A stretch of DNA of 64,000 nt from Pseudooceanicola algae (GTDB lineage: Bacteria; Pseudomonadota; Alphaproteobacteria; Rhodobacterales; Rhodobacteraceae). Shown here piece by piece: positions 26,534-51,990 of the stretch. Each line of letters starts with the position of its first letter. Within the stretch, counting starts at the first letter, position 1. The DNA lies in contig NZ_CP060436.1 in the NCBI RefSeq assembly GCF_003590145.2, positions 2,547,001 through 2,611,000 of the forward strand. The letters run 5' to 3'. The position numbers and the translations under genes were made by a program. The notes under the pieces are model-generated. The model ran no database searches. It saw nothing but the letters and a program-made list of their open reading frames with translations, and was not told the DNA's origin.

Positions 26534-26583
26534 GCTGCCCTCCGCAGGCAGGTAGGGGCGGCGCAGGCCGCCCCCCTGAAGCC

Positions 26584-27726: not shown

Positions 27727-27778
27727 GGTATTTCTCCGGAAGGGTCAGGGGGGAGGTCGCGGCACAAGCGGCCGCCTT

Positions 27779-28909: not shown

Positions 28910-28942
28910 CCGGGCGGCCCTTCATAATTCTGCTACACAAAG

Positions 28943-28960
28943 TATGCACACGTGTTCATA
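28943..28960. promoter_or_regulatory. Near-perfect 18-bp palindrome, likely LacI-family operator
   Basis: TATGCACACGTGTTCATA has TATG/CATA arms around a CACGTG core, with a single mismatched pair (28947/28956). It sits in the 105-bp region between the divergent ATPase gene (start 28909) and LacI gene (start 29015). Size, symmetry and central CpG fit LacI/GalR operators. Confidence 0.65.
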
Positions 28961-29014
28961 TACGGGTAGAGCGTGACAAGGTTATGACGCCCGACCAGAA
29001 AGAAAGCTGCGCCG

Positions 29015-30031
29015 ATGAGCCCTTCCCAGCCTCCCCCCACACGCCCGCACCGCGTCACCGCGGCCGATGTCGCGAAGAAGGCCGGGGTATCGCGGTCCGC
29101 CGTATCCCGCGCCTTTACGGAGGGCACCTACCTCGACAAGGAGAAACGCGTGTCGATCCTGCAGGTTGCGGCGGATCTCGGCTATCGGCCCAACGCCCTT
29201 GCAGCGGGGTTGCAGGCGCAGGGGCGATCCAACCTGGTCGCGGTCGTCACCGGGGACCTTGCCAACCATTACGACGGAGAGATCCTTGCCAAGCTGATCC
29301 ACCGCCTCAGGGATCTGGGCAAGTGGCCCATGGTCATCGGCGGTGGCGAAATGACAGAATCGGATGTTCTCGGGGTGCTCGGCTTTCCGCTGGATGCGAT
29401 GATTCTGCGCGGCGGGTCGGTCCCGGATCAGGTCGTGGAAGAATGCCTGAAGCTGCAGATCCCGCTGATCGTCTCGGGTCGCGTGCTGGACCGTCCGGGG
29501 GTGGATTCGGTCTGCTGCGACAATGAAACCGGGGCGGAACTGGCCGTCGGGGCATTGGTCGCGGCCGGGCGACGCCGGATTGCCTATCTGGGCGGGCGGC
29601 AGGACCTGACCTCGGACCGCGAACGCCGCGCCGGGTTCGTCGCCGCAATGGCCGCTGCGGGCCTGACACCGGTCGCCTTGTTCAGCGGAGACTACAGTTT
29701 CGACGGCGGGGCCAGTCAGGCGCGCCAGCTTCTGACGCAGCATCCCCAGATCGACGGTCTGTTCTGTGCCAATGATGCGATGGCGCTTGGCGCGATTGCC
29801 ATCGCCGGGCAGGAATGCGACCGAAAGGTCCCCGAAAGCCTGTCGGTCATAGGGTTCGACGATATCGCCATGGCCCGCTGGCCCGCGATTGCCCTGTCGA
29901 CCATCCGCAACGACATGGATGAAACCGTATCTCAGATGATGCGCCTGCTGAGCGCCCGGCTTGCCGATCCCGACAGCCCATCGCGGGTCATCCGCATTCC
30001 TCCCGAATTCATTGCCAGGAATACCCATTGA
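29015..30031 (+). CDS. LacI family transcriptional regulator
   Basis: 338 residues. The N-terminal LacI helix-turn-helix (VTAADVAKKAGVSRSAVSRAF, hinge NALAAGLQAQ near residue 60) is followed by a periplasmic-binding-like effector domain (SNLVAVVTGDLANHYDGEIL, DGLFCANDAMALGAI, LSVIGFDDIAMARW). It is divergent from the ABC importer and very likely controls it through the palindrome at 28943. Its stop overlaps the TTG start of the next gene. The effector is unknown but probably the imported solute. Confidence 0.93.
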   Translation: MSPSQPPPTRPHRVTAADVAKKAGVSRSAVSRAFTEGTYLDKEKRVSILQVAADLGYRPNALAAGLQAQGRSNLVAVVTGDLANHYDGEILAKLIHRLRDLGKWPMVIGGGEMTESDVLGVLGFPLDAMILRGGSVPDQVVEECLKLQIPLIVSGRVLDRPGVDSVCCDNETGAELAVGALVAAGRRRIAYLGGRQDLTSDRERRAGFVAAMAAAGLTPVALFSGDYSFDGGASQARQLLTQHPQIDGLFCANDAMALGAIAIAGQECDRKVPESLSVIGFDDIAMARWPAIALSTIRNDMDETVSQMMRLLSARLADPDSPSRVIRIPPEFIARNTH

Positions 30032-30570: not shown

Positions 30571-32100
30571 CTACCCCTCGGCGCGCATCCCGGCGGCAAA
30601 GCTTTCGGCCAGAGCCATGACAGCGGCATGGACAGGGCCTGCAGTGATCGCCGGAATGACCGAACTGTCAACGATCCAGAGGTTGTCGAGCCCGCGCATC
30701 CGCAGGTCCGCATCCGTCACCGAGGCCTCGTCCGCGCCCATGCGGCAGGTGCCGACGGGGTGGTGGTGGGTGATCGCACTTCGGGCGATGAAATCATCCA
30801 GGGCCGCGTCATCGGCTACGACAGGCCCCGGCAGGACCTCTTCCTGCACCCATTCCGACAGCGGCGCGCTGCGGGCGACGGCGCGGGCGCGGTCCAGGGC
30901 GATGCGGAACATCCGGCGGTCGTGGTCCGTCTGCAGGTAGCGCGGGTCGATCACCGGCTTGTCGTCGATCCGAGGCCCCGTCACATGCAGCGCGCCCCGG
31001 CTGGTCGGGTGGGTAACACCGAACAGCAGGGTAAAGGCCTCGCCCGGCGGCGGGGCATCGAACCCTTCGGCGGCACTTGGACCGACGACGCAACCGACAA
31101 CGATATCGGGCTTGCCTGTGGTGCGGGAAGGGTCAGCGGATTGGTAGGTCATGGATTCCGATAGCTGCAACCGCGACGGGGCCAGGGGCCGCGCGGATCG
31201 GTAGAGGTTCCCGGCGCCCAGCAGGTGGTCATGCAGGTTGCGCCCGATCTCGGACCGCGCGTCGCGACAGGCGATCCCGGCGGCGGACAACACCGCCGGA
31301 TCGCCATAGCCGGAGCGCATGAGCAGCAGCGGGCTGGCGATGGCGCCCATCGCCAACAGGACGCACCCTCCGGTCACCGTCCCGGGCTGACCATGTCGCG
31401 TGACCTCGGCGCCGGTCACGCGGGCACCCTGCACGGTCAGCCGGTGGACCAGCGTGTCATCAAGGACCGTCAGGTTGGGCCGGGCCAGCACCTCGGACGT
31501 CAGGTAGGCGTCGGCCACGGTGACCCGCCTGCCGTCGCGGATCATCAGGGCATTCGGCGTCGCCCCGATCATCTCGCGCCCGTTGTGATCCGCCAGACGC
31601 GGCAGGCCAAGGGCGGTCCAGCTGCGGATGTAATCGCCCACGATCGGATGGCTTTCGCCCTGCGGCAACAGGACCGGCATCGGGCCGTCGCCACCGTGCA
31701 GATCGTCCGCCCCTGTGGAACAGCTTTCAGACATGCGGAAATAGGGCAGCAGGCTGTCGTAGGACCAGCGCTGCGAGCCGGTCAGGCGCGCCCATGTGTC
31801 GAAATCCTCGGGGTGCCCGCGCACATGGGCCATGGCGTGCAGGTTGCTGGACCCGCCAAGCGCCCGGCCCCGCGCCCAGTGATGCCGCCGGCCTGCGGTG
31901 CCCGGTTGCGGTTCGGTCACGAAACCCCAGTCAAAATCCCGCCCCTGGATAAAGGGCCACATGGCAGGGCGGGCGATATCGGGGTCGTTCGGCCAGCCGC
32001 CGGCCTCGACCAGCGTGACCTCGCAGGTGGGGTCCTGCGACAGGCGGGCCGCAAGGATACAGCCGGCAGACCCGGCGCCGAGGATCAGGATATCGGTCAT
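30571..32100 (-). CDS. GMC oxidoreductase, probable pyridoxine 4-oxidase
   Basis: 509 residues. The N-terminal FAD dinucleotide motif (MTDILILGAGSAGCILAARLSQDP), the GMC signature HHWARGRALGGSSNLHAMAHVRG (about residue 73) and a C-terminal active-site region (ARSAITHHHPVGTCRMGADEASVTD, then DSSVIPAITAGPVHAAVMALAE) define the family. Several unusual stretches (LPRLADHNGREMIGATPNAL, HDHLLGAGNLYRS, ITHHHPVGTCRMG) match my memory of Mesorhizobium pyridoxine 4-oxidase, which converts pyridoxine to pyridoxal with O2. Its neighbours, a GntR regulator and a pyridoxamine-pyruvate transaminase, support that. A choline-dehydrogenase-like alcohol oxidase of other specificity cannot be excluded. Confidence 0.85.
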   Translation of the reverse strand: MTDILILGAGSAGCILAARLSQDPTCEVTLVEAGGWPNDPDIARPAMWPFIQGRDFDWGFVTEPQPGTAGRRHHWARGRALGGSSNLHAMAHVRGHPEDFDTWARLTGSQRWSYDSLLPYFRMSESCSTGADDLHGGDGPMPVLLPQGESHPIVGDYIRSWTALGLPRLADHNGREMIGATPNALMIRDGRRVTVADAYLTSEVLARPNLTVLDDTLVHRLTVQGARVTGAEVTRHGQPGTVTGGCVLLAMGAIASPLLLMRSGYGDPAVLSAAGIACRDARSEIGRNLHDHLLGAGNLYRSARPLAPSRLQLSESMTYQSADPSRTTGKPDIVVGCVVGPSAAEGFDAPPPGEAFTLLFGVTHPTSRGALHVTGPRIDDKPVIDPRYLQTDHDRRMFRIALDRARAVARSAPLSEWVQEEVLPGPVVADDAALDDFIARSAITHHHPVGTCRMGADEASVTDADLRMRGLDNLWIVDSSVIPAITAGPVHAAVMALAESFAAGMRAEG

Positions 32101-32143
32101 GGGGCGTTCCCTGCAGTTCGGGCTTCCGGATCAGGCCGCCAAT

Positions 32144-32857
32144 TCAGGCCGCATCGGTCGAGCGAGAGCCCAGCCTTCCCGTCAACTTGCGCTGCGTTCG
32201 CTCAAGGTGCTCATACATCGCCTGTTCGGCACTGTCGGGGTCGCGTTCGGCAATGGCGGCGGCGATTTCCTGATGTTCCAGATCGCGCGCACGGACGCGC
32301 TCGACGGTGGTATTGCTGTCGGAATCGCTGTCGGTAAACCGCAGCCGGGCATCGTTCTGGACCCGGTGCAGCAGGATATGCAGCTCTGACGCCAGCGAAT
32401 TGCGCGACCCGGCGGCGACGGCGCGGTGGAATTCCTGATCCGCCTGGCTGGGCGACATCCCCCCCGGCGAGGTCGAGGTTTGCACAATCCGCGCGATCTC
32501 GTCCGGCGAGGCCCGCAGCGCTGCAAGCCGGGCCAACGAGGGTTCGATCATCAGGCGCATTTCCATCACTTCCAGCGGGTTGGTGGATTGCACCAGCCGG
32601 GCGCTTGGCGTCGACTTGTCCGGCGCCGCGCGACGACCGCTTTTCGCCGGCTCGAGTTCTCCGTTGTCGCGCAGGGTCTTGAGCGCCTTGCGCAGGGTAT
32701 GACGCGACACGTCAAGCTGTTCGGACAGCCTGCGTTCCGGCGGGATCTTGGGGCTTTCCGACAGGAGGCGGCGCAGGTTCGCCAGCACCGTCTCCAGCTT
32801 GTCGTCCTGCTCGGCTCCGCCTGCGGGCTGGTCGGGCAAGTGATCCTGATCGCTCAT
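32144..32857 (-). CDS. GntR family regulator with FCD domain
   Basis: 237 residues. The N-terminal GntR winged helix is LANLRRLLSESPKIPPERRLSEQLDVSRHTLRKALKTLRDNGELE (residues 25-70), followed by a helical FCD effector domain (LEVMEMRLMIEPSLARLAALRA, DQEFHRAVAAGSRN, metal-site histidines and DLEHQEIAAAIAERDPDSAEQAMYEHLE). FCD regulators are usually repressors released by a carboxylate-type effector, often with metal. It precedes the GMC oxidase gene by 43 nt and diverges from the PPAT gene across the TTGGTTGC-box region, so it is the best candidate reader of those boxes. Confidence 0.92.
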   Translation of the reverse strand: MSDQDHLPDQPAGGAEQDDKLETVLANLRRLLSESPKIPPERRLSEQLDVSRHTLRKALKTLRDNGELEPAKSGRRAAPDKSTPSARLVQSTNPLEVMEMRLMIEPSLARLAALRASPDEIARIVQTSTSPGGMSPSQADQEFHRAVAAGSRNSLASELHILLHRVQNDARLRFTDSDSDSNTTVERVRARDLEHQEIAAAIAERDPDSAEQAMYEHLERTQRKLTGRLGSRSTDAA

Positions 32858-32957
32858 ACCTACCTCGTTCTCCTCGTCTGGCCGAAGCTTTCGGTTGCCA
32901 TGGCAGGGCAGCCATATGCCTTTTGTTTTGCAGAAGTTTGAGAGAATTGCGCCCGCT

Positions 32958-33030
32958 TTGCAACCAAAAAGTCAAATCTGGTCAGAAGTTGGTTGCCGAT
33001 TTGGTTGGCATATGGTTGGATTTGGTTGCG
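32958..33030. promoter_or_regulatory. TTGGTTGC / GCAACCAA box array in gntR-PPAT intergenic region
   Basis: GCAACCAA at 32960-32967 (inverted), TTGGTTGC at 32989-32996, TTGGTTGG at 33001-33008, ATGGTTGG at 33012-33019 and TTGGTTGC at 33022-33029. The last four are direct repeats spaced 12, 11 and 10 bp, close to one helical turn. The 14-mer TTGCAACCAAAAAG (32958-32971) recurs exactly at 41900-41913 upstream of the monooxygenase operon. Confidence 0.7.
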
Positions 33031-33153
33031 CCCCGTCTGCACACAGGGGGCGCTGGTCGCGCGGCGCCTTGCCTTACCCCTGGCCAGCCCCAAAAGGAGC
33101 CGATCGTGCAAGGGGCCGGGAAAGGCCGGACAGAAACCGACAGGATCGAACCG

Positions 33154-34338
33154 ATGAATGACAGTCTTGCCGCCACTGCGGCCCCCGCCCTTTTCACGCT
33201 GACCACCGGACCGGTGAATTGCTATCCAGAGGTCCTCTCGGCCATCGGCAAGCCGGTCCTTTACGACTACGACCCCAGCTTCCTCGAACATTATCAATCG
33301 GTTGTCCTGAAACTGCAGAAGGCCCTCGGGATCAGCACCATGCCGGTCATCCTGCAAGGCGAGCCGGTTCTGGGCCTCGAAGCGGCAGCACATGGTCTGG
33401 TCGCGCCGGGGGACAGGGTGCTGAACCTGGTTTCCGGGGTCTACGGGGCGGGCTATGGCGAATGGCTCAAACCGCTTGCGGGGGCGTTTCACGAAATCCG
33501 CGTGGGCTATGATCAGGCCATAGACCCGGCCGATGTGCAGGCCTTCCTTGCGGCGCATCTCGACACGGCCGTGGTCGCGGTCTGCCATCACGACACGCCC
33601 TCGGGGACGCTGAACCCGATCGCCGAGATCGGCAAGATCGTCCAGGCCCATGGCGCGTTGCTCATCGTCGACGCGGTGTCGTCCTGGGCAGGCATGGAGA
33701 TCGACATCGAAGGCATCGGCGCCGACCTTCTGATCACCGGCCCGAACAAATGCCTCGGCTGCCCGCCGGCCCTGTCGATCCTCACCCTGTCCGACCGCGC
33801 CTGGGCCAAGCTGGAGGCGAACCCGAAGGCGCCGCGCGCCTCTATCCTGTCGATCCTCGACTGGAAGACGGCCTGGAAGGCCAGCGAGGGCTTTCCCTTC
33901 ACCCCTTCCGTGGCCGAGATCAACGCGCTGGATGCCGGGCTCGACCGCTACCTGTCCGAAACGCCCGAAGCGGTCTGGGCCCGCCACGCCCTGACGGCCA
34001 GGGCCATGCGCGCCGGGGTCAAGGCCATGGGGCTGACCCTCTGGGCGACGGATGAAGCGATTGCCTCGCCCACCTGCACGGCCGTCAGGCTGCCCGAGGG
34101 CGTCGACGAGACCCTGTTGCGCAACCGGATGAAGCAGGATTACGGCGTGGTCATATCCTCGGGTCGGGCCGAGACCTTCAACGCCCTGGTGCGCATCGGC
34201 CACATGGGGCCGACCGCCTATCCGCTGTATGCGGTGCTGGCGCTGACGGCCCTCGGCGGGGCAATGGGCGCGCTGACGGGCAAGCCGCTCGACATCGGGG
34301 CGGGGGTCGCGGCGGCGAACCGGGTCATTCAGGGCTGA
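33154..34338 (+). CDS. ppaT: Pyridoxamine-pyruvate transaminase
   Basis: 394 residues, the family's usual length (about 393). It contains TLTTGPVNCYPEVLSAIG, VLYDYDPSFLEHY, VILQGEPVLGLEAAAHGLV, SVCHHDTPSGTLNPI-type text (AVCHHDTPSGTLNP), LIVDAVSSWAGM and the PLP lysine in ITGPNKCLGCPPA (about K203), then GVVISSGRAETFNALVRIGHMGP. These match Mesorhizobium loti pyridoxamine-pyruvate transaminase as I remember it (EC 2.6.1.30): pyridoxamine + pyruvate to pyridoxal + L-alanine. Serine-glyoxylate aminotransferases are relatives, but the HHDTPSGT and GPNKCLG context fits PPAT better. AGGA lies 8 nt upstream of ATG 33154. It is the lone plus-strand gene of the island. Confidence 0.88.
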   Translation: MNDSLAATAAPALFTLTTGPVNCYPEVLSAIGKPVLYDYDPSFLEHYQSVVLKLQKALGISTMPVILQGEPVLGLEAAAHGLVAPGDRVLNLVSGVYGAGYGEWLKPLAGAFHEIRVGYDQAIDPADVQAFLAAHLDTAVVAVCHHDTPSGTLNPIAEIGKIVQAHGALLIVDAVSSWAGMEIDIEGIGADLLITGPNKCLGCPPALSILTLSDRAWAKLEANPKAPRASILSILDWKTAWKASEGFPFTPSVAEINALDAGLDRYLSETPEAVWARHALTARAMRAGVKAMGLTLWATDEAIASPTCTAVRLPEGVDETLLRNRMKQDYGVVISSGRAETFNALVRIGHMGPTAYPLYAVLALTALGGAMGALTGKPLDIGAGVAAANRVIQG

Positions 34339-34348
34339 GGCATCCTCC

Positions 34349-35386
34349 TCAGCCATGCACCACCTTGCCATCGCGGGTCATCGCCACACCGTCCAGCGAC
34401 AGCGAACAGCCCCGCAGCGGGATATCCAGATGGCAAGGCGTGTCGCGGCTGCCGCCCGCTTCGGTATTCGGGCCGGTCGAGAACAGGAAGTTGCCCTCGA
34501 AACAGCGCGCATCCATGAACAACGCAGCCTCGCGGTCATAAAGCCCCATGGTCGTCCAATGGGCGCGGGGGTCCAGCCCCCAGCCGACATGGGCCATGGC
34601 ATAGGCATCGGGATCGTCAAAGCTGTCCATGAAGGCACGGATATACTCGGCCGTCATGCCGCCGCCCGCGACGCGGGTGACAAAGCCCTTGTCGATGGTC
34701 AGGGTAACGCGGTCGCGGGCATAGGTCTTGAAAGGCAGAAGGATGTCACCTTCGTCGATGACGATGGTGCCTTCGCTGCTGCCTTCATCGGGCCAGCGGG
34801 CAATCATGCAGCTTGGCCAATGGTCCCAACGGCCCGGCTCATCGGCCAGACCGTATTGCATCAGCACCGGGTATTGCCCGAGCGCACAATGGAAATCCGT
34901 CCCCGCAGCCGAGGTCACATGCATCGCGCGCGCCGGCTCCATGAACCTGTTGGCGGCCCGGACGCGGGCCTTGAAATCGGGCGTCGGCATCATGCGCATC
35001 ATGGTCTCTGGCGGTTCGACCGCCAGCAGCATGCGCGTGCCCTTCTTCAGGATCTCTTCCTGTTCGGGCGAGAACAGCAGCTGCATCGTGTCGATGATCA
35101 TATCCGCGGATTCCAGCGCCTTCATCGCCACCGTGTTGAAAGCCAGAGGGGTCTTGCCGACATAGCCGGACTTGTCTCGCGACAGGGCCTTTTCGCCATT
35201 GATCGGCGGCAGGTGGATCAGCGTCAGCACCGCGCCCATCAGGCCGACGGCCACGCGCGCGCAGCGCACGATCTGCGGGTTGCTGTCGTCGGACATCAGA
35301 ATCGCGACCTGTTCACCAGGCCGGACCTTGCACTGCTCCAGCACGTCTTTCCACGCGATGACGAAATCTGCGTCACTGATCGGCAT
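34349..35386 (-). CDS. NicX-like 2,5-dihydroxypyridine 5,6-dioxygenase
   Basis: 345 residues. It matches the NicX/M29-like dioxygenase family: MPISDADFVIAWKDVLEQ start, MIIDTMQLLFSPEQEEILKKGTRMLLAVEPPE, TDFHCALGQYPVLMQYGLADEPGRWDHWP, EGDILLPFKTYAR, then MAHVGWGLDPRAHW and RDTPCHLDIPLRGC, which carry the His and HxD iron ligands of Pseudomonas NicX. NicX opens the ring of 2,5-dihydroxypyridine to N-formylmaleamate with O2 and Fe(II). I used ATG 35386 (AAGGAG about 10 nt upstream). It is last in the seven-gene operon and convergent with PPAT, 10 nt apart. The true substrate may be a substituted pyridine. Confidence 0.87.
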   Translation of the reverse strand: MPISDADFVIAWKDVLEQCKVRPGEQVAILMSDDSNPQIVRCARVAVGLMGAVLTLIHLPPINGEKALSRDKSGYVGKTPLAFNTVAMKALESADMIIDTMQLLFSPEQEEILKKGTRMLLAVEPPETMMRMMPTPDFKARVRAANRFMEPARAMHVTSAAGTDFHCALGQYPVLMQYGLADEPGRWDHWPSCMIARWPDEGSSEGTIVIDEGDILLPFKTYARDRVTLTIDKGFVTRVAGGGMTAEYIRAFMDSFDDPDAYAMAHVGWGLDPRAHWTTMGLYDREAALFMDARCFEGNFLFSTGPNTEAGGSRDTPCHLDIPLRGCSLSLDGVAMTRDGKVVHG

Positions 35387-35426
35387 GTCTGTCTTGCTCC
35401 TTTTCGGGGCCCTTGGGGCGATGTCT

Positions 35427-35945
35427 CTAGCGGCGTTCGCCAAGCGGATGGAAGCCGCGATTGAAATGCAGCAGGGGCGGGCGATCGGGGTTGACCGAGA
35501 CCTCTTCGACCCGCCCGATAAAGATGCTGTGGCTGCCCGCAACCAGCGCCTGATCGAGACTGCAAGCGATATGGGCCAGCGCGTGGGCATAAGCGGGCGC
35601 CCCGTTGAGGGTTTCGACCCAGTCATGGCCGTCGAACTGCGCGGCCCCGCTGCGCCCGGTCATCCCGGCAAAGTCGGCGGCCAGATCCTGCGCGTCCTCG
35701 CCCAGCAGGTTGACGCAGAAGTGCCCCGCCTCGGTAATCGCCTCATGCGTGGCGCCGCTGCGGTTGACGCAGACCAGCACCGTCGGCGGCTCCATCGTCA
35801 CCGAGGAAAACGCCGTGGCGGTCAGCCCGCGCCGCTGATCCCCCTTGCCGGCAGTGATCACAGTCACGCCCGACGCGAAATGGCGCATCGCCATCTTCAG
35901 GCCATCGACCGCATCGGAGCGCGGGAAGGTCATGGGTATCGTCAT
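35427..35945 (-). CDS. Flavin reductase, partner of the HpaB-type monooxygenase
   Basis: 172 residues from ATG 35945, preceded by GAGGAG at 8 nt. It has the flavin reductase split-barrel motifs MRHFASGVTVITAGKGDQRRGLTATAFSSVTMEPPTVLVCVNRSGATHEAI, FCVNLLGEDAQDLA and the C-terminal GSHSIFIGRVEEV followed by PLLHFNRGFHPLG. HpaC-type members reduce FAD or FMN with NAD(P)H and hand it to a two-component oxygenase. The likely partner is the HpaB-like protein at 40274 in the same operon. It lies 4 nt after the AbrB-type gene stop, so they are tightly coupled. Confidence 0.92.
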   Translation of the reverse strand: MTIPMTFPRSDAVDGLKMAMRHFASGVTVITAGKGDQRRGLTATAFSSVTMEPPTVLVCVNRSGATHEAITEAGHFCVNLLGEDAQDLAADFAGMTGRSGAAQFDGHDWVETLNGAPAYAHALAHIACSLDQALVAGSHSIFIGRVEEVSVNPDRPPLLHFNRGFHPLGERR

Positions 35946-35949
35946 ACGG

Positions 35950-37053
35950 TCATCTCCTCGACGGCAAGGGCGGGCGCGCAGGGCTCCAGATCGGCAGCCG
36001 GGCAAGGCGGCCGACGATCATCGGCCCGAACAGGACCACGGCGAACATGCGTACGGTCTGGAAAGCCAGCACGGCGGCGACATTGGCATTGGTCGATATG
36101 GCGACAAGGGCGACGGTTTCGATGCTGCCCGGCGCGGTGGCCAGCAGCGCCGTCTTGAGGTCGAGATCGGTGAGCATCGACAGCGCCCAGCCGAGCAGCG
36201 CGCTGATCAGGATCAGCACCATGGTCGAGACCAGCACGACGGGCATCAGACGCATGACCTTGCCCAGCACATCGCGGGTGAACTTCAGCCCGACCTCCAG
36301 CCCGATGATGCCGAAGGTCAGCACCAGCACCGGGGCGGGCATCGACAGGTGCATGAAGCCGCCGGCCTCGATCACCGCGCCCAGGATCATCGGCACCAGC
36401 ATTCCCGCGCCGGGCAAAAAGCGCAGCCGCCCGGTCAGCAGCGACATGGCCGCGATCCCCAGCGCCACGACCGAGGACAGCGGCGTGACCTCGCGCAGCA
36501 CGGCAACCTCTCCGGGTTGCGAGGGCAGCAGGCTGGCCAGCACGGCGATGGAGACGATGACCCCGGCAAGGCGCACGTATTGCATCAGGGCCACGACGCG
36601 CGCATCGGCGCCCCGCTCGGTCGCAATGATGACCATGGCGCCGGACATGCCGGGCAGGCTGCCATAGATCGCCACGTCGCGGTCGATCCCGGTGCGCCGG
36701 TTCACCGCCCAGCCAATCGCGAAGGCGGCCGTCAGGGTCAACGCGGTCATCAGCAGCAACAGCGGCCAGTCCTGGATCATGTCGACCAGGATCGCGGGCG
36801 ACATGGCCGTGGCGATGAAGACCCCGGCGCAGCCCTGCGCCAGCACGTAGATCGGCCGCGGAATGCGCAAGGGACTGCCGCTGGCGCCAAAGCCGATCCC
36901 GGCGATCATCGCGCCCAGAAGCGGCGCAGCCGGGAAATGCACCAGCGTCAGGACCAGCGCCAGCGCCGATGCGAGGCTCAGCATGGCCGCCCATTGCAGC
37001 GCCCCCCGGACACCTTCGGTGCGCCCAAGATCAAGGCGGGGCACTCCTGTCAC
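35950..37053 (-). CDS. AbrB-type integral membrane protein (AbrB duplication family)
   Basis: 367 residues with nine to ten hydrophobic segments. The duplicated pattern ALVLTLVHFPAAPLLGAMIAG and PIYVLAQGCAGVFIATAMSP, with later GSLPGMSGAMVIIATERGADARVVALMQYVR and TALLATAPGSIETVALVAISTNANVAAVLAFQTVR, is the AbrB/AidB-like membrane family sometimes called putative ammonia monooxygenase. Function is unclear; a transporter or regulator role has been proposed. Its place inside the operon, overlapping the upstream amidase by 4 nt, suggests transport of the pathway substrate or an intermediate (inference). Confidence 0.82.
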   Translation of the reverse strand: MTGVPRLDLGRTEGVRGALQWAAMLSLASALALVLTLVHFPAAPLLGAMIAGIGFGASGSPLRIPRPIYVLAQGCAGVFIATAMSPAILVDMIQDWPLLLLMTALTLTAAFAIGWAVNRRTGIDRDVAIYGSLPGMSGAMVIIATERGADARVVALMQYVRLAGVIVSIAVLASLLPSQPGEVAVLREVTPLSSVVALGIAAMSLLTGRLRFLPGAGMLVPMILGAVIEAGGFMHLSMPAPVLVLTFGIIGLEVGLKFTRDVLGKVMRLMPVVLVSTMVLILISALLGWALSMLTDLDLKTALLATAPGSIETVALVAISTNANVAAVLAFQTVRMFAVVLFGPMIVGRLARLPIWSPARPPLPSRR

Positions 37054-38345
37054 GGCGCGACCTTCGGCGCTTCAAGGCAGCGCTCGACCCAGGCCGCGGC
37101 CCGCAATGTGGCCGCGTCCTCACCGATACGGCCGATGATCTGAACCCCGACCGGCAGCCCGTCGGACAGAATGGCCGGCAGGGTCAGCGCGGGCATGTGC
37201 AGCACGGTCCAGGGCGTGTTGAATTCCGGCGACCCGGTCGCCTCCAGTCCTTTGGGCGCGGTGCCCGGTGCCGAGGGAGCGAGCAGGATATCGACCTCTG
37301 CCATCGCCTGCGAAAGGCTTTGGTGGACGGCGGGCAAGGCGCGCCGGGCAGCGTCGTATTCCTCGACCGTGACCCTGGCCTTTTCGGCCAGGAAGGCGCG
37401 CGTGACCTCGGTCAGACGGTCGCCCAGCACCAGACGTTCATGCGAAAGGGCGCGCGAGACCTCCCAGCCCATGATCGCGGCGTGCAGCCCGTGGGTCGAT
37501 CCGAAATCGGTCGGCGGCGTGATGTCGGTTACCCGGGCACCCGCCGCGCCAAGCGCCCTGATCGCATGATCGAGGGCGGCATCGGTCGCGGCCTCGGTGT
37601 TGAAGGGCGGCGTGCGGAACACCCCGATGCGCGGCGCTGTATCGGGAAGGCCCTTCAGCGCCAGACCGGGGCGCCCGCCAAGGATCGCGGCGACAAGGGC
37701 CGCATCCGCCACGCGGCGCGTCACCACCCCCAGCGTGTCGAGCGAATGGGACAACACCTTGATCTCGGACGGATCCAGCAGGCCGAAGCTGGGCTTGTAG
37801 CCCACTACCCCGCAATAGGAGGCCGGGCGAATGATCGACCCGGCGGTCTGGGTGCCGAACCCCATCAGCGCCATGCCCGAGGCCACCGCAGCGCAGGACC
37901 CGCTGGAGGAGCCTCCGGGCGTATGGGCGGTGTTCCAGGGGTTGCGCGTCTTGCCGGGACTCGCCATGGCGAATTCGGTCGAAACCGTCTTGCCCATCAT
38001 CAGCGCGCCTGCCTGCCGGGACTGGGTGACGCAGGGCGCATCCCAGACCGGCTGCGTCGCGCCATACAGGGCCGAGCCATAGCCCGTCGGCATGTCGCAG
38101 GTGTCGATCACATCCTTGACCCCGACCGGCAGCCCGGCCAGCGCCCCCCTCGTGCCCGCAAGATCCAGCGCATCCGCCGCATCGCGGACCATTGCGGAAT
38201 CGTGGAAAATGAATGCGCCGACGGACTCTTCTTTCGTGGCGATCCGGTCCAGGTAGGCCTCGGCCACGGCACGGTGGCTCAATGCACCATCACGAACCCC
38301 GGCGATCAGGCTGCAGGCATCAAGGGACAGGATGGGGTCGGTCAT
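37050..38345 (-). CDS. Amidase signature family hydrolase (second of tandem pair)
   Basis: 431 residues. The amidase catalytic triad is visible: lysine in GLPVGVKDVIDTCDMPTGYG (about K77), and the serine pair in HTPGGSSSGSCAAVASGMALMGFGTQTAGS (about residues 145-170). Members hydrolyse C-N bonds of amides. In a pathway ending with NicX-type ring opening, an amidase is needed to deamidate the maleamate-like product. It overlaps the upstream amidase stop by 4 nt (ATGA) and the downstream AbrB-type start by 4 nt. Whether it acts on N-formyl amides or primary amides is unknown. Confidence 0.9.
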   Translation of the reverse strand: MTDPILSLDACSLIAGVRDGALSHRAVAEAYLDRIATKEESVGAFIFHDSAMVRDAADALDLAGTRGALAGLPVGVKDVIDTCDMPTGYGSALYGATQPVWDAPCVTQSRQAGALMMGKTVSTEFAMASPGKTRNPWNTAHTPGGSSSGSCAAVASGMALMGFGTQTAGSIIRPASYCGVVGYKPSFGLLDPSEIKVLSHSLDTLGVVTRRVADAALVAAILGGRPGLALKGLPDTAPRIGVFRTPPFNTEAATDAALDHAIRALGAAGARVTDITPPTDFGSTHGLHAAIMGWEVSRALSHERLVLGDRLTEVTRAFLAEKARVTVEEYDAARRALPAVHQSLSQAMAEVDILLAPSAPGTAPKGLEATGSPEFNTPWTVLHMPALTLPAILSDGLPVGVQIIGRIGEDAATLRAAAWVERCLEAPKVAP

Positions 38346-39796
38346 GCTGGGGACTTCTCTGTCAGGTTGGGGCGACGGTGCGCCCAGGGGGCGGCGCGTT
38401 CGATCTGCCCGGCGAGCGAGAACAGAAGCGCATCCTGCCCGTAGCCGGCCCCGAAATGCACCCCGATGGGCAGCCCCTCGACAGACAGGCCGAAGGGCAG
38501 GTTCATCGCCGGACAGCCCGAGGAATTGAAGACGCAGGTAAAGGGGCTGTGCTGCCAGAACCGGTCATAGAACGCATCAAGATCCGCCGGGCTGTCGCCG
38601 GTGGCGCTCGACATCTCGCCGATGCGGGGGGGCAGTTCGCCGCTGCCGGGGGTCAGCAGGATGTCGTAGCCCGCAAAGAACCGCCCCATGTCGCGCGCGG
38701 TGCGGTGCAACAGGTTGACGGCTGCCAGATAGTCCATCCCGCTCAGCCCCATGCCTTCGCGGATCCAGGCGCGGTTCACCGGTTCAAGCTCGGCCACCGG
38801 ATCGGCGAGCCCGAGCATGGCGCCGCGCGCCGTCACGGCGCTGGCGACATTGACTCCGGGGATCACCCGCCAGGCGGTCTTGAGCGCATGGGCGTCATAC
38901 CCGGCATCGGTGATCTCTTCGACATGATGCCCAAGGCTTTCCAGCAGGCGCGCAGTCGCCACGCAGGCCGCCCGGACCTGGGGATCGACGGGCGTGCCAA
39001 GCGGTGAGTCCAGGGTCATCCCGATCCGCAGCGGACCGGGATCGCGCGCCGCCGAGGTCGCAAAGCTGTCGTGAACAGGGGGACAGGCCGAAGGGTCACC
39101 CACATCGCCGCCCGCGGTCGCATCCAGCAGGGCCGCGCTGTCGCGCACCGACCGGGTCAACGCATGGGGCGTCGACATGCCCGCGATGCCTTCGACCACC
39201 ACGGGGCCAAGCGGATTGCGCATCCGGCTGGGCTTGAACCCGAACAGACCGGTGTGACTGGCCGGCAGACGTGTCGACCCTGCCCCGTCCGAGGAATTGG
39301 CGAAGGGCACCAGCCCAGCCGCCACGGCCGCCGCCGATCCACCCGAGGATCCGCCGGGCCCATGATCCTTGTTCCACGGATTGCACGTGGGCCCGGAAGT
39401 GGCAGGTTCGGTGGCAAAGCTGAGCGCGAATTCCGGCGTATTGCTCTTGCCCATCAGCACGACACCGGCCTTGCGGTAGCGGGCCACCAACGTGCAATCC
39501 GCCGCATCTGTCATACCCTGAAACAGGCGGCAACCGGTCGACATTTCCATCCCCGCCACGGCGATGCCGGTGTTCTTGACCAGCATGGGCACGCCGGTAA
39601 AGGGCCCATCTGGCAGGCCGCGCACGATATCGGCCTGCGCCAGGTCGAAATGCGGATGCACGATGGCGTTGATCTGCGGTTCCAGCCGCGCGATGCGGTC
39701 AAGGGCGGTCGCAAGGACCTCTTGCGAGGTCACCTCGCCGCTTCGCACCAGCGCGGCAAGCGCGGTCGCATCAAGGGTGTCGTATTCCGAAATCAT
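38342..39796 (-). CDS. Amidase signature family hydrolase (first of tandem pair)
   Basis: 484 residues. It shows the triad lysine in TGVPMLVKNTGIAVAGMEMSTG (about K73), the catalytic serines in DHGPGGSSGGSAAAVAAGLVPFANSSDGAGSTRLPAS (about residues 145-180), and the family C-terminus NSSGCPAMNLPFGLSVEGLPIGVHFGAGYGQD. It is only distantly similar to its neighbour amidase, so the pair probably performs two different hydrolyses. It follows the SnoaL-type gene by 3 nt and overlaps the next amidase by 4 nt. Nylon-oligomer or mandelamide hydrolase-like activity is possible; the pathway amide is my preferred guess. Confidence 0.9.
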   Translation of the reverse strand: MISEYDTLDATALAALVRSGEVTSQEVLATALDRIARLEPQINAIVHPHFDLAQADIVRGLPDGPFTGVPMLVKNTGIAVAGMEMSTGCRLFQGMTDAADCTLVARYRKAGVVLMGKSNTPEFALSFATEPATSGPTCNPWNKDHGPGGSSGGSAAAVAAGLVPFANSSDGAGSTRLPASHTGLFGFKPSRMRNPLGPVVVEGIAGMSTPHALTRSVRDSAALLDATAGGDVGDPSACPPVHDSFATSAARDPGPLRIGMTLDSPLGTPVDPQVRAACVATARLLESLGHHVEEITDAGYDAHALKTAWRVIPGVNVASAVTARGAMLGLADPVAELEPVNRAWIREGMGLSGMDYLAAVNLLHRTARDMGRFFAGYDILLTPGSGELPPRIGEMSSATGDSPADLDAFYDRFWQHSPFTCVFNSSGCPAMNLPFGLSVEGLPIGVHFGAGYGQDALLFSLAGQIERAAPWAHRRPNLTEKSPA

Positions 39797-39799
39797 AGG

Positions 39800-40201
39800 T
39801 CAGCCGATCTGGGCGAGGAAGGCGCCCTTGTCCCAGTAATCCCGCGTACCCTCGATCCGGTCGTCGCGGATCCGGATCAGGTGCAGGCCATCCAGCACGA
39901 CCTGCCGGCTGCCGGGCACCTCGCCGTCCTTGCCGCCGCGCAGGGTAAATGTGCCGGTCATGACGTAATTCACCGCTGTCCAATCCGCTGATCGGATCAC
40001 CTTGCCCGGCGCCCAGCGGACATCGGGCAACATGCGGAACAGCCCCGACAGGCCATCGGCCAGGGCGACCTGGCCTTCGCGGCGGCCCTCCATGGCGATT
40101 TCCTCGTGCCAGCCATCGGCGTGATACAGCGCGGCGGCGGCAGGGGCGTCATGGCGATTATAGGCGGCGTAGAACGCCTCCAGCAGGGGGTTATCCAGCA
40201 T
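39800..40201 (-). CDS. SnoaL-like NTF2-superfamily protein
   Basis: 133 residues. The pattern MLDNPLLEAFYAAYNRHDAPAAAALYHADGWHEEIAMEG, with later DGLHLIRIRDDRIEGTRDYWDKGAF, is the cone-shaped NTF2-like/SnoaL fold. Relatives include cyclases, isomerases, dehydratases and non-catalytic ligand binders. Its position between the monooxygenase and the amidases suggests it isomerises or hydrates a pathway intermediate (inference). It lies 72 nt after the monooxygenase gene and 3 nt before the first amidase. Confidence 0.82.
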   Translation of the reverse strand: MLDNPLLEAFYAAYNRHDAPAAAALYHADGWHEEIAMEGRREGQVALADGLSGLFRMLPDVRWAPGKVIRSADWTAVNYVMTGTFTLRGGKDGEVPGSRQVVLDGLHLIRIRDDRIEGTRDYWDKGAFLAQIG

Positions 40202-40273
40202 GGCGGGAAGTCTTCCGGGATTCAGGATTTGGAAAACCCCGGACCGCAGGCAGCGCGGTCCGGGACAACGGTA

Positions 40274-41767
40274 TTACCAGTCCATGCCCGCGATGGTCTT
40301 GACCTGATCGACGAAGGCCTCGCGCTTGACCTCCTCGAAGAGGCGGGCGCGCAGGCGCGGCGCGGGCGAGGAATTGACGTTTTCAAACAGCGCCACGCGT
40401 CCGGCCAGGGCCCCGCTGGTCATGTCCCAGATGAAGTTCATCAACAGCTCTTTCTGCATCGCGGACACACCGTGGCCGGGCAGCAGATCCTGCAGGTAGT
40501 GACCGACCTCGGGGTTCTCGAAGGCGGCCTTGCCGAAGCGCATGACCAGGCCCTGACCACAGATTTCCTGAAGCGTGTGGATGACTTTCGGATAGTTATC
40601 AATGGAATAGAGCCGGCCTGCCGTCAGCATGGAGACATCGGGCGTCAGCACACCGGCCGCGGTCATGGTGGCCTGCGCTTCGGCGGCGATGACGAAGGCA
40701 CGCAGGGTCTGGGCGTATTCGATCAGCTCGCCCAGCATCAACTGCACAGCCGGGATCTTGCCGGTGCCGAGCACGTCCAGCACCATCTGACCGGCACCCA
40801 CGAACAGCTCGGCCTTCACCGCCAGGCGGGTCAGCACGTGCCAGTGGGCAAAGACGCAGACCGGCCCGTACCAGGACATGCCAGTGGGGTCACCAAGGTT
40901 GAAGATCTTGTCCTTCGGCACGAAGACATTGTCGAAGATGATGAACTGGTCGGCCTCTTCCCCCATCGAAGCGACGGGATGGTCGAACTTGTCCGCACCG
41001 GGTTGCGAGACCATTTCACGCGAGATCATCTTGATCCCCGGCGTGTTGATCGGCACCGCACCCCAGACGCAGGCTTCGGGCGGGGTGGTGGTCAGCCCGC
41101 CGAGGTTGGTGAAGAAGATGTCATTGGCCTGAGCGGCGATCGACCCGACGGTCTTGGCCCCCGATACGACGATCCCGTCGGCCCGCGCCTCCTTGACCCG
41201 CAGGAAGGCCATCTCGGCGGCTTTCGGGTTCGACCGGTCGGTCTGCGGACCCGCCAGGCTTTCCGAAGCGGTCAGGTTGTTGTTCCGGCCGAAGTCCATG
41301 TAGGCTTCGATGTTCTCGACGAAATCAGGCTGGCAGCCGTCGATCATCGAGGATTTCTCCTTGAAGGCTTCGCGGTGCGCCATCAGCCCGGCGACGATGG
41401 CGGGCGACAGATCCGGCGGACGGCCGAAGGTGCCCGCGGTCTTGAGGCTGGTATATTCGATCATCTTGCGCCGCGCAGTCAGTTCTTCGGGCGTAGTCGG
41501 AACCTGCCAGGACCGGCTGACCAGCTCTCCGCTGGCGGGATCGTTATAGGTGGTGGCCTCGGCGAACTCGGGCTTGAACTGGTCGTCGAACATGCTGGCA
41601 ATCAGGTCGACCCCGGCAGCCAGCGCGGGTTCGTCCGTGACCTTGTCCAGCTTGCGGCCCCCCAGCCAGATCTGGCGTCCATCATCAAGCGAGGCCTTGA
41701 ACTCTGCCCCGGTCTTGAGGCGATGCGCCGGCTTCACGGCCGCGGGATTGGTATCTTGCACAGTCAT
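40274..41767 (-). CDS. HpaB-family two-component flavin monooxygenase (oxygenase component)
   Basis: 497 residues. It belongs to the 4-hydroxyphenylacetate 3-monooxygenase/PvcC family: LKTGAEFKASLDDGRQIWLGGRKLDKV start, AYMDFGRNNNLTASESLAGPQTDRS in the first third, ADGIVVSGAKTVGSIAAQANDIFF (flavin region), and KDKIFNLGDPTGMSWYGPVCVFAHWHVLTR. These enzymes hydroxylate phenols with reduced FAD delivered by a separate reductase, here probably the gene at 35427. 3-Hydroxypyridines are phenol-like, so hydroxylation para to the ring OH would yield a 2,5-dihydroxypyridine, the NicX substrate (inference). It heads a seven-gene operon below the GCAACCAA-box promoter. Confidence 0.9.
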   Translation of the reverse strand: MTVQDTNPAAVKPAHRLKTGAEFKASLDDGRQIWLGGRKLDKVTDEPALAAGVDLIASMFDDQFKPEFAEATTYNDPASGELVSRSWQVPTTPEELTARRKMIEYTSLKTAGTFGRPPDLSPAIVAGLMAHREAFKEKSSMIDGCQPDFVENIEAYMDFGRNNNLTASESLAGPQTDRSNPKAAEMAFLRVKEARADGIVVSGAKTVGSIAAQANDIFFTNLGGLTTTPPEACVWGAVPINTPGIKMISREMVSQPGADKFDHPVASMGEEADQFIIFDNVFVPKDKIFNLGDPTGMSWYGPVCVFAHWHVLTRLAVKAELFVGAGQMVLDVLGTGKIPAVQLMLGELIEYAQTLRAFVIAAEAQATMTAAGVLTPDVSMLTAGRLYSIDNYPKVIHTLQEICGQGLVMRFGKAAFENPEVGHYLQDLLPGHGVSAMQKELLMNFIWDMTSGALAGRVALFENVNSSPAPRLRARLFEEVKREAFVDQVKTIAGMDW

Positions 41768-41880: not shown

Positions 41881-41922
41881 ATGGTTGCCGACCGAACCAT
41901 TGCAACCAAAAAGAATGGTTGC
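41881..41922. promoter_or_regulatory. ATGGTTGC / GCAACCAA boxes upstream of the monooxygenase operon
   Basis: ATGGTTGC (41881-41888), GCAACCAA (41902-41909) and ATGGTTGC (41915-41922) form alternating inverted pairs 114 bp or more upstream of the monooxygenase start at 41767. TTGCAACCAAAAAG (41900-41913) is identical to the copy at 32958-32971. Confidence 0.68.
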
Positions 41923-42084
41923 GACCGAATTCTACCTTCCGGGCCTGAAATTCACGCAGAGCATCCCAAAAATCAAAGCCACATTCGTAATAATGCCCGC
42001 AAAAATAGTGCAAATAGGAACATTCAGGGGGTCGCTTGCCCAAAGTCAGGGCATTTTCACTGATTGACCGCAAGAAGTTCGCCC

Positions 42085-42160
42085 GCAACCATTTAAACGG
42101 TTGAGATGTGTTGACGGACCATTTTCGCCGGATATGGTCTGACTCGTAGCGGTTGGTTGC
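42085..42160. promoter_or_regulatory. Additional GGTTG boxes
   Basis: CAACC (42086-42090) and GGTTG (42099-42103) form an inverted repeat around ATTTAAAC, and TTGGTTGC recurs at 42153-42160. They extend the box family toward the transporter side and could loop or act as auxiliary operators. Confidence 0.45.
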
Positions 42161-42347: not shown

Positions 42348-42818
42348 TCAGAAAGCGGTGCAGACGGTCTTTTCCACCGCCTCGGGCAGGGCGTCTTCGG
42401 GCGATGTGGTGCAGCTGTATTCCATCGGCACCTCCTGCGCGCCGACTGCCCGCTTCAGCGGCATTTCAAAGCGTGTGTCCCAGCTGCGCCCCGCGACCCC
42501 GCACCAGATCCGCTCTACCGGCATCTGGTCCTCGACCGGGTTCAGCAGCAGCACCGCGCCGGTTTCCGGATCGGACCAGAAGCCGCTCGACAGGGTCGCC
42601 CCGAAGGCGACCGTACCGATGTCGAAAGAATACCAATGCGCCAGCTTCACCCCACAGGTCAGCGGCACGACGCCGATGTTCTGCACGGCAAAAGGCACGG
42701 CCACCAGACCTTCGGTGCCGCGTTCCGGCGTCAGGCCATGGCCCTGGGCAAGGGCCGGCGCGGCCAGGGCAAGGGTGGCGCAGAAGGTCAGCGCGGAACG
42801 GAAGAAGGAAACGGTCAC
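42348..42818 (-). CDS. Hypothetical periplasmic protein with four cysteines
   Basis: 156 residues from a GTG start at 42818 that leads straight into a signal peptide (MTVSFFRSALTFCATLALAAPALAQG). The mature part has four cysteines (PLTCGV, RIWCGV, EYSCTT, KTVCTAF), an even number suggesting two disulfides in a small exported domain. A GAGG lies about 8 nt upstream of the GTG. I do not recognise a family. It diverges from the BMP binding-protein gene (111 bp between starts) and ends facing the box-rich region. It may be a small solute-binding or envelope protein. Confidence 0.62.
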   Translation of the reverse strand: MTVSFFRSALTFCATLALAAPALAQGHGLTPERGTEGLVAVPFAVQNIGVVPLTCGVKLAHWYSFDIGTVAFGATLSSGFWSDPETGAVLLLNPVEDQMPVERIWCGVAGRSWDTRFEMPLKRAVGAQEVPMEYSCTTSPEDALPEAVEKTVCTAF

Positions 42819-42929
42819 GGCAAACCTCGTCTGATCGGAAAGAAGAAAGCGGGCACCGCCGGGACAGGCGGGCCTTACAGGCCCGAGAAACGAAAACCAA
42901 ACGGGCTGAATGTCAACAACAGGGAACCA

Positions 42930-43967
42930 ATGATGCAACATTCTCGGAATCGAAGACTGACTCACCTTGTGTCTGCTGCAGCGCTAAGCGTTGTGCTGGC
43001 GCTTCCGGCCTGGGCCGAAGACATCTCCTCCATCGCCATCCTGACCCCGGAAGCGGGCACCGATTTCGGCTGGAACCAGCAGGGGATCGACGGGGCCAAG
43101 GCCGCCGGCGCCGCCATGGGCGTCGACGTGATCGTCGCGGAAAACCTCGGCTACGGCGATGTGCGCCCGACCCTGCGCGAACTGTCCGAAGAAAAACCCG
43201 GCCTGATCATCGCCCATGCCAGTGGCTACAACACTGCCGCACCCGAAATCGGCGCCGAAGCCGGTGTGAAGGTCGCGATCACCGACAGCCCGGATTCCCT
43301 GATGGAAGGCGCCGTGGTCGACTATACCTCTTCGGGTCACGAAGGCGCCTATCTTGCCGGTGTTCTGGCCGCCAAGATGTCCCGCTCCGGCATCGTCGGC
43401 ATCGTCACCTCGGGCGAGCCGCCCTCGTGGAATTCCCAATCCGCGGCCTTCGCCGAAGGCGTGAAGGCGACCAATGCCGATGCCACCGTACGGTATGCCG
43501 TGATCGGCCCGGCAGCCTATTCCGATGCGGCGGGCGGCAAGCGCGTGACCGAATCGCTGATCGCTTCCGGGGCCGACATCATCTTTGGCCAGGGCAACGG
43601 GTCGTCCTTCGGCATGTTGCAGGCGGTCGAGACCACGCCGGCCGCCGATGGCGAAAAGGTGCTGTTCATCGATGTGATCGGCGACAAGACCCCGATCGAC
43701 AAGGGCTATCTGCTCAGCTCCGTCCTGTGGAACCTGGCGCCCGTCTACGAAGAGATGATCGCGGACATCAAGGCCGACACCTTCGGCACCCGCAACTACG
43801 GCATCAACCTGGCCGATGGGTCGGTCGCGCTGCTGCAGACCCCGCAGATCCCGGATGACGTCTGGGCCGAGGTCATGACCGTCAAGGACGAGATCGTCGC
43901 CGGCGACCTGGTGATCGAACCGCATTTCGACGCCCAGTCGGTGCATGACCTGGTGGCGGGCGAGTAA
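42930..43967 (+). CDS. BMP-family ABC transporter substrate-binding protein
   Basis: 345 residues with signal peptide (LVSAAALSVVLALPAWAED). The mature protein shows the BMP/PnrA pattern: AGTDFGWNQQGIDGAKAAG, SGYNTAAPEIGAEAGVKVAITDSPDS, VVDYTSSGHEGAYLAGVLAA and FGQGNGSSFGMLQAVE. BMP-type proteins bind nucleosides or purine bases and, in some systems, other heterocycles. No lipobox cysteine is visible, so it is soluble. ATG 42930 (AGGGA just upstream) is doubled by a second ATG at 42933. First gene of a four-gene importer beside the pyridine-type catabolic operon; the real ligand is unknown. Confidence 0.92.
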   Translation: MMQHSRNRRLTHLVSAAALSVVLALPAWAEDISSIAILTPEAGTDFGWNQQGIDGAKAAGAAMGVDVIVAENLGYGDVRPTLRELSEEKPGLIIAHASGYNTAAPEIGAEAGVKVAITDSPDSLMEGAVVDYTSSGHEGAYLAGVLAAKMSRSGIVGIVTSGEPPSWNSQSAAFAEGVKATNADATVRYAVIGPAAYSDAAGGKRVTESLIASGADIIFGQGNGSSFGMLQAVETTPAADGEKVLFIDVIGDKTPIDKGYLLSSVLWNLAPVYEEMIADIKADTFGTRNYGINLADGSVALLQTPQIPDDVWAEVMTVKDEIVAGDLVIEPHFDAQSVHDLVAGE

Positions 43968-44044
43968 CCCGCGCCCCAACCGCTGAAACGCTTCATGCGG
44001 GCCCCGACCGGGCCCGCATTTCCCAACTTCCCCGGAGGTCCGAC

Positions 44045-46707: not shown

Positions 46708-46708
46708 G

Positions 46709-51967: not shown

Positions 51968-51990
51968 GGCCTGGTGCGCGGCGAAGAGCT

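Follow-up and report, generated by a model that had tools for sequence, protein, structure and literature searches.

The 64,000-nucleotide stretch of Pseudooceanicola algae DNA analysed here (the window; its genome, G000, is 4.09 Mb) carries an island that, judged from its gene content and sequence relationships, is likely to degrade vitamin B6 through a third ring-opening branch, beside the two B6 degradation routes already described (PMC3538738; pathway I also in PMC6253932). A first-pass annotation had noticed B6 entry enzymes lying next to an HpaB-type monooxygenase, a NicX-like dioxygenase, two amidases and a SnoaL protein. This gene group is real: the island genes are all uninterrupted open frames that lie at or close to the positions first given, their families were confirmed, and a search with HpaB retrieved 47 loci in which the set is found again. 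The GntR regulator, the AbrB-family protein and the BMP transporter had not been named. The features are as follows.

30571-32100, minus: predicted pyridoxine 4-oxidase (PNOX), a GMC oxidoreductase; best PDB match 4ha6
32144-32857, minus: GntR/FCD regulator of the island (PF07729, PF00392), divergent from PPAT; 26 of 47 loci
32961-33028, no strand: five TGGTTG copies between GntR and PPAT, a candidate operator array; hexamer upstream of GntR in 26 of 26 GntR-type loci
33154-34338, plus: predicted pyridoxamine-pyruvate transaminase (PPAT); NF046070
34349-35386, minus: NicX-type Fe(II) dioxygenase, predicted to open the ring, with Glu177 changed to Gln; PDB match NicX 7cn3
35427-35945, minus: flavin reductase of the two-component monooxygenase (PF01613, 155 bits); 41 of 47 loci; start read from the frame
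35950-37053, minus: AbrB-family membrane protein (PF05145, TIGR03082); 17 of 47 loci
37050-38345, minus: amidase A (PF01425), malonamidase E2-like; proposed substituted-maleamate amidohydrolase
38342-39796, minus: amidase B (PF01425); proposed N-acetyl (imide) deacylase; 45 of 47 loci
39800-40201, minus: SnoaL-like small protein (PF12680, PF07366); 45 of 47 loci
40274-41767, minus: HpaB-type reduced-flavin-dependent monooxygenase (PF11794, PF03241); proposed 6-hydroxylase of pyridoxal or a near derivative
41882-42159, no strand: five TGGTTG copies between HpaB and the transporter, a candidate operator array; hexamer upstream of HpaB in 26 of 26 GntR-type loci
42348-42941, minus: small secreted-looking protein beside the transporter; no Pfam match; relatives in 44 of 47 loci
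42930-43967, plus: BMP/PnrA-like substrate-binding protein (PF02608), predicted B6 uptake; 43 of 47 loci
44045-45628, plus: ABC ATPase of the BMP transporter (PF00005 twice)
45625-46707, plus: ABC permease 1 (PF02653)
46709-47641, plus: ABC permease 2 (PF02653)

The HpaB, SnoaL, amidase B, amidase A, AbrB-family, flavin reductase and NicX-type genes follow one another, tightly packed, on the minus strand, and since the gaps between them measure only -4 to 72 bases they probably form one operon. PPAT, on the plus strand, adjoins the NicX-type gene; GntR and then PNOX lie beyond it, both on the minus strand, and the opposite flank of HpaB is occupied by the BMP-type ABC transporter (42930-47641, plus). 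The frame of the NicX-type gene extends further, and its start was set at the internal ATG at 35386, from which point the protein matches NicX. That of the small secreted-looking protein is unsure, an ATG at 42941 overlapping the BMP gene and a GTG lying at 42818.

Conservation of the gene set

The core sample of 47 loci was obtained in one scan of genome contigs with HpaB alone as query; by their titles, 45 come from alphaproteobacteria and 2 from metagenome-assembled genomes (MAGs) assigned to Enterobacterales. The NicX-type gene was present in 46 of these loci, PNOX in 45, PPAT in 44, both amidases in 45, SnoaL in 45, the flavin reductase in 41, the small secreted-looking protein in 44 and the BMP protein in 43. 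PPAT is missing from three loci (L049, L057 and L084), each a contig of 6 to 12 kb. The loci fall into three gene orders: that of the window, a second in which PPAT and PNOX lie on the far side of the transporter, and the Brucella/Ochrobactrum/Ciceribacter/Paracoccus type, which has a different GntR and additional genes. Because the set recurs in loci fetched by HpaB alone, it is more than a chance neighbourhood. The AbrB-family gene (17 of 47 loci) was not limited to window-type loci and was seen in none of the Brucella or Ancylobacter type; within the operon, its product is a possible exporter or permease of an intermediate.

The distribution of the set is patchy. Among 198 genomes of the window's family, the island HpaB occurs in the window genome only, six others carrying relatives that are 28-31% identical. 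In 385 genomes of the class, PPAT exceeded its cut-off in 8, window included, and some NicX relative was found in 49, with more than 55% identity only for the window's own. This patchiness suggests that the island has been passed around horizontally. Beside the island, positions 24891-30031 hold an ABC set (solute-binding protein, ATPase and two permease-like frames) with a LacI regulator, which may or may not belong to it, since most of the stretches from relatives stop near its expected start; at 51662-52812, two frames resemble, by eye, an IS3-family transposase pair.

Entry enzymes and markers of the canonical pathway

The identification of the GMC oxidase as PNOX and of the transaminase as PPAT, as the first-pass annotation had it, is well supported by agreement among a profile cut-off, matches to solved structures and trees. 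The window PPAT scored 629 bits on the curated equivalog profile NF046070 (cut-off 600 bits) and 511 bits against the solved Mesorhizobium loti PPAT (118 for the next relative), with 62.8% identity (238/379) to the crystallised protein 2z9u. Both the pyridoxal phosphate lysine and the Glu of the GEP motif were kept in all 53 aligned PPATs (window, 44 cluster and 8 other sequences). The window GMC oxidase matched 4ha6, Pyridoxine 4-oxidase, at 596 bits, against 260 for the next protein, a non-PNOX entry, and is 54.3% identical (271/499) to M. loti PNOX. Phylogeny had been set beforehand as a refuting test, and both proteins group with PPAT and PNOX rather than apart from them. In the PPAT tree, the canonical PPATs, M. 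loti included, form one group (89/96) among the cluster lineages, and six outgroup rows lie far off on a branch supported at 100/100. In the PNOX tree, which has only two outgroup rows, the crystallised M. loti PNOX nests among the cluster oxidases and four oxidases of other canonical loci group just outside the cluster clade. In their trees, the window's NicX-type protein and PPAT fall among those of Sinirhodobacter, Actibacterium and Celeribacter.

Markers of the canonical route were searched for in 55 whole genomes: the window genome, the 47 with the HpaB set, whose completeness was not told and some of which are MAGs, and the 7 other genomes of the class sample with PPAT over cut-off. 4-Pyridoxolactonase (cut-off 325 bits) was over cut-off in 1 of the 48 set-bearing genomes versus 5 of the 7 PPAT genomes without the set; the single set-bearing case was an Actibacterium, at 340 bits. 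Pyridoxal 4-dehydrogenase (PLDH), with up to 40 candidates scored per genome, gave 0/48 versus 4/7, and FHMPC dehydrogenase, taken at E up to 1e-90, gave 0/48 versus 5/7, three of these five being over cut-off. The lack of PLDH and lactonase noticed in the local stretch thus extends to the whole window genome, where neither exceeded its cut-off: the best lactonase match reached 24 bits, and nothing matched PLDH or FHMPC dehydrogenase at E 1e-90, with no search made for MHPC oxygenase or AAMS hydrolase. MHPC oxygenase was sought by eye in 20 kb neighbour stretches of canonical-route genomes, among the open frames of two of six (L087 and L088), and none was recognised.

Of the 7 PPAT loci that lack the HpaB set, 5 also have the BMP protein near PPAT; canonical genes accompany it in three (L032-L034) and are missing from the other two (L035 and L036). 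Since it stands by PPAT even where the set is missing, it tracks B6 entry rather than one ring-opening branch, and from this linkage we infer that the BMP-type ABC transporter imports B6. Relatives of the small secreted-looking protein occur in two of the 7 other PPAT loci, L035 (10687-11106) and L036 (8801-9241), and within the cluster at, for example, L047 (8943-9389) and L059 (1854-2294); it is possibly an accessory periplasmic B6 protein.

The proposed ring-opening branch and its probable regulation

The monooxygenase has both the N- and C-terminal HpaB domains and a flavin reductase partner gene. Its best solved relatives, at 209-222 bits, are an entry named 4-hydroxyphenylacetate 3-hydroxylase, a 4-nitrophenol 4-monooxygenase and chlorophenol 4-monooxygenases, 2,4,6-trichlorophenol 4-monooxygenase among them. 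Para attack relative to the B6 hydroxyl would fall on C6 and give a 2,5-dihydroxypyridine pattern.

The sole PDB match of the dioxygenase was NicX 7cn3 (421 bits; 54.1% identity, 185/342). NicX residues and ligands were taken from PMC7910607 and their numbering was mapped onto the relatives by alignment, not by structure. The iron ligands of NicX are His265, Ser302, His318 and Asp320, and Glu177 and His189 hold the substrate (PMC7910607). All four ligands, together with His189 and Arg293, were kept in the 46 cluster sequences and in the window, and Leu104 and Glu308 in 46 of 46. At position 177, the other substrate residue, all 46 and the window carry Gln; because of this change we call the protein NicX-type and do not file it as NicX. 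The 12 nearest outside relatives (48-56% identical) all have Glu177, and the position is Glu in 26, Gln in 8 and another residue in 23 of 57 outside sequences. The 47 cluster rows are monophyletic (support 100/99). Comparison with characterised NicX had been proposed earlier as a check; the cluster proteins, the window's included, form a NicX-type branch of their own, with the iron site intact. A change of His105 to Phe was considered as a further mark of the cluster and dropped, Phe being common in ordinary NicX relatives.

The neighbours of the two kinds of dioxygenase gene also differ. In eight of the 12 nearest outside loci, genes resembling a deformylase, a maleamate amidase and a maleate isomerase all lie within ~1.5 kb, whereas the 47 cluster loci have no maleamate-amidase-like or maleate-isomerase-like gene and one weak deformylase-like match. 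These neighbours presumably correspond to NicD, NicF and NicE; NCBIfam gave no useful name for them. What the island has instead are two amidase-signature proteins. Amidase B is closest, in the PDB, to 6-aminohexanoate cyclic dimer hydrolase (292 bits), and amidase A to malonamidase E2 (270 bits), a monoamide hydrolase of a small dicarboxylate; the Lys of VKD, the serines of GGSSSGS and the Arg of GSxxRP were present in amidase A in 45 of 45 cases. Plain 2,5-dihydroxypyridine gives N-formylmaleamate on ring opening. A B6-derived ring has a methyl group where the plain ring has hydrogen, so that the product would be N-acetylated and a deformylase ill suited. The replacement of the nic-type deformylase and maleamate amidase by a cyclic-amide-hydrolase-like and a malonamidase-like amidase would be as expected for such a product. 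The suggestion that the amidases release ammonia can be refined, ammonia more probably coming from one of them and acetate from the other.

The gene sets of other lineages may reveal downstream chemistry. CMD (PcaC-like) proteins were found in 29 of 47 loci, the L059 copy scoring 151 bits (cut-off 156), and Brucella-type loci add MmgE/PrpD-like, hydroxyisobutyrate-dehydrogenase-like and SDR genes. Ten loci of Ancylobacter, Siculibacillus and Chthonobacter (L070-L074, L076, L077, L079, L080 and L082), which also have the PcaC-like gene, append a PcaD-like hydrolase (159 bits; cut-off 256), an enoyl-CoA-hydratase-like protein and another hydroxyisobutyrate-dehydrogenase-like protein. This enzyme complement would suit a dicarboxylate that bears a hydroxymethyl group and forms a lactone. 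In window-type loci, not one of these additional genes is linked.

Both sides of the island share an upstream motif. The hexamer TGGTTG was first noticed in the window and then tested in relatives. All of the 26 loci with the island GntR, which are related and hence not 26 independent tests, carry it in the 350 bases upstream of HpaB and of GntR alike, and 24 of them carry it there upstream of PPAT. When hexamers were ranked by the number of loci with a copy upstream of both HpaB and GntR, TGGTTG came first, and the next (17 loci) overlaps it. Among the 18 loci with another GntR, none has it upstream of HpaB, 1 has it upstream of PPAT and 3 have it upstream of this other GntR. These results suggest that GntR probably controls both sides of the island through TGGTTG arrays as candidate operators. 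FadR-type operators, sought first, occurred only sporadically. A third GntR-controlled locus outside the island, possibly with an aldehyde enzyme, was sought through paired TGGTTG and dropped for want of a convincing place: direct pairs gave 12 matches, 4 in the island, versus 9 for the reversed control pattern, and so are hardly above control genome-wide; inverted pairs gave 7 places, 2 in the island, versus 1 for the control; and no convincing catabolic gene stood at 7 of the 13 paired places outside the island.

Proposed pathway, alternatives and comparison with known systems

The idea of a third B6 degradation route is supported as far as sequence can test it, and we consider it likely that the island encodes one. 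In the proposed mechanism, the BMP-type transporter would bring in B6, PNOX would oxidise pyridoxine and PPAT would convert pyridoxamine, both to pyridoxal. HpaB with its flavin reductase would then add a hydroxyl group to pyridoxal or a close derivative at C6, the position para to the 3-hydroxyl, to form a substituted 2,5-dihydroxypyridine, and the NicX-type enzyme would cut the C2-C3 bond beside the methyl-bearing carbon to yield an N-acetyl amide of a substituted maleic acid. Amidase B would release acetate and amidase A ammonia. The remaining hydroxymethyl/formyl dicarboxylate, perhaps a lactone, would pass to the SnoaL-like protein, which perhaps carries out an isomerising, lactonising or dehydrating step, and in other lineages to PcaC-, PcaD- and hydroxyisobutyrate-dehydrogenase-like enzymes, all under GntR acting through the TGGTTG arrays. 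The para-hydroxylation and NicX-type opening foreseen in the first-pass annotation would fit the HpaB relatives, the iron site and the amidase relatives alike. Tentatively, and with less than even confidence, we propose a more specific course that bypasses 4-pyridoxic acid: the cyclic hemiacetal of pyridoxal would be hydroxylated at C6 and opened by the NicX-type enzyme to an N-acetylated furan-like product, the amidases would strip acetate and ammonia, and a lactone remnant would be handled in some lineages by PcaC/PcaD enzymes as in the beta-ketoadipate pathway, while B6 uptake would rely on an importer of a new class (BMP/PnrA type), the set as a whole being controlled by GntR.

An alternative that overlaps with this explanation, and that we regard as a real if doubtful possibility, is that an unlinked oxidase or aldehyde dehydrogenase, from a different family, first converts pyridoxal to 4-pyridoxate and that HpaB hydroxylates 4-pyridoxate, with or without loss of the carboxyl group. 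In its favour, window-type loci have no linked aldehyde enzyme, and a direct oxidase of pyridoxal to 4-pyridoxate has been described (PMC6253932); however, PLDH was found in none and lactonase in one of the 48 set-bearing genomes, and no dehydrogenase gene is common to all locus types within the stretches examined. It is improbable that the C4 aldehyde is lost as formate through an ortho attack by HpaB (Dakin type), leaving a 3,4-dihydroxypyridine for the NicX-like enzyme to open. Such a reaction would account for the lack of a linked aldehyde enzyme, the 3-hydroxyl does lie ortho to the aldehyde, and the best solved HpaB relative is named a 3-hydroxylase; but other top relatives are phenol 4-monooxygenases, and NicX, whose iron site is unchanged here, is described for 2,5-dihydroxypyridine only (PMC7910607). 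It is equally unlikely that the natural substrate of the HpaB/NicX/amidase branch is some other hydroxypyridine and that the branch simply accompanies the B6 entry genes, since, even though characterised NicX acts on plain 2,5-dihydroxypyridine (PMC7910607), PPAT lies near the branch in 44 and PNOX in 45 of 47 loci across three gene orders, the TGGTTG motif ties both sides together, and Glu177 to Gln separates the branch from the nearest NicX.

Several observations weigh against a B6-specific third branch as proposed. HpaB is distant from all its solved relatives (at most 222 bits) and the top entry is a 3-hydroxylase by name, so that the hydroxylation site is a guess. Gln177 is not restricted to the cluster, since it occurs in the 8 outside sequences, including L098, whose long branch is placed near the cluster in the NicX tree. 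As Glu177 is important in NicX, where the alanine variant kept 2.7% of activity (PMC7910607), Gln may mean an altered reaction. No gene for the C4 aldehyde is linked in window-type loci. Two Neorhizobium loci (L047 and L050) lack both amidases and the flavin reductase, the flavin reductase is absent from three Ancylobacter loci, and SnoaL from two of the 47. Finally, two PPAT genomes (G263 and G037) lack all three canonical markers and also any NicX relative (E up to 1e-30), so that a genome without the markers need not have a NicX-type branch. The two Neorhizobium loci retain HpaB, SnoaL, AbrB and NicX. In G263 and G037, PPAT stands with the BMP transporter (L035 and L036, respectively) and no PNOX was seen within the 20 kb stretch examined; these genomes may have another route, salvage or a remnant.

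If the proposal of a third B6 route is true, its presence across Rhodobacterales and several Rhizobiales families would change how B6 turnover is predicted from genomes, and a classic vitamin would be broken down by a different ring-opening chemistry. In addition, the island names a concrete candidate B6 importer of the BMP-type ABC class, only three characterised prokaryotic B6 transporters having been counted in a 2023 study (PMC9997740), and its dioxygenase provides a naturally occurring NicX variant in which a residue that holds the substrate is altered. Among the open-licence PMC papers listed, none was found on such a pathway or on a BMP-type B6 transporter.

In pathway I, nitrogen ends acetylated in 2-(acetamidomethylene)succinate, which gives acetate, ammonia, CO2 and succinic semialdehyde (PMC3538738). 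The island resembles this pathway, known from Pseudomonas MA-1 and Mesorhizobium loti, in its PNOX and PPAT entry, in the kind of BMP transporter found near PPAT in the canonical-gene loci L032-L034, and in the proposed departure of nitrogen through an acetylated intermediate. Unlike pathway I, the window genome has no PLDH, lactonase or FHMPC dehydrogenase over cut-off, and the ring would be opened by HpaB and a NicX-type iron dioxygenase rather than by MHPC oxygenase, for which the window genome was not searched. Pathway II, of Pseudomonas IA and Arthrobacter Cr-7, runs via isopyridoxal and 5-pyridoxate. It shares with the island the degradation of B6 and a hydroxymethyl carbon kept to the end, in pathway II as 2-(hydroxymethyl)-4-oxobutanoate (PMC3538738).

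The nicotinate/2,5-dihydroxypyridine pathway (NicX, NicD, NicF) likewise couples a NicX-type opening to two hydrolytic steps, but the island differs by Glu177 to Gln, by two amidase-signature enzymes in place of the deformylase-like and maleamate-amidase-like ones, and by the absence of a maleate-isomerase-like gene. With the two-component phenol monooxygenases acting on 4-nitrophenol and 2,4,6-trichlorophenol, whose para attack is taken from the enzyme names, it shares the HpaB domains and a flavin reductase, whereas the island HpaB is distant from them (209-222 bits) and sits in a B6 gene set. Malonamidase E2, the closest solved relative of amidase A, acts on the amide of a short dicarboxylic acid, whereas the substrate proposed for amidase A is a substituted maleamate. 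All in all, the island would represent a new B6 degradation pathway assembled from known enzyme families.

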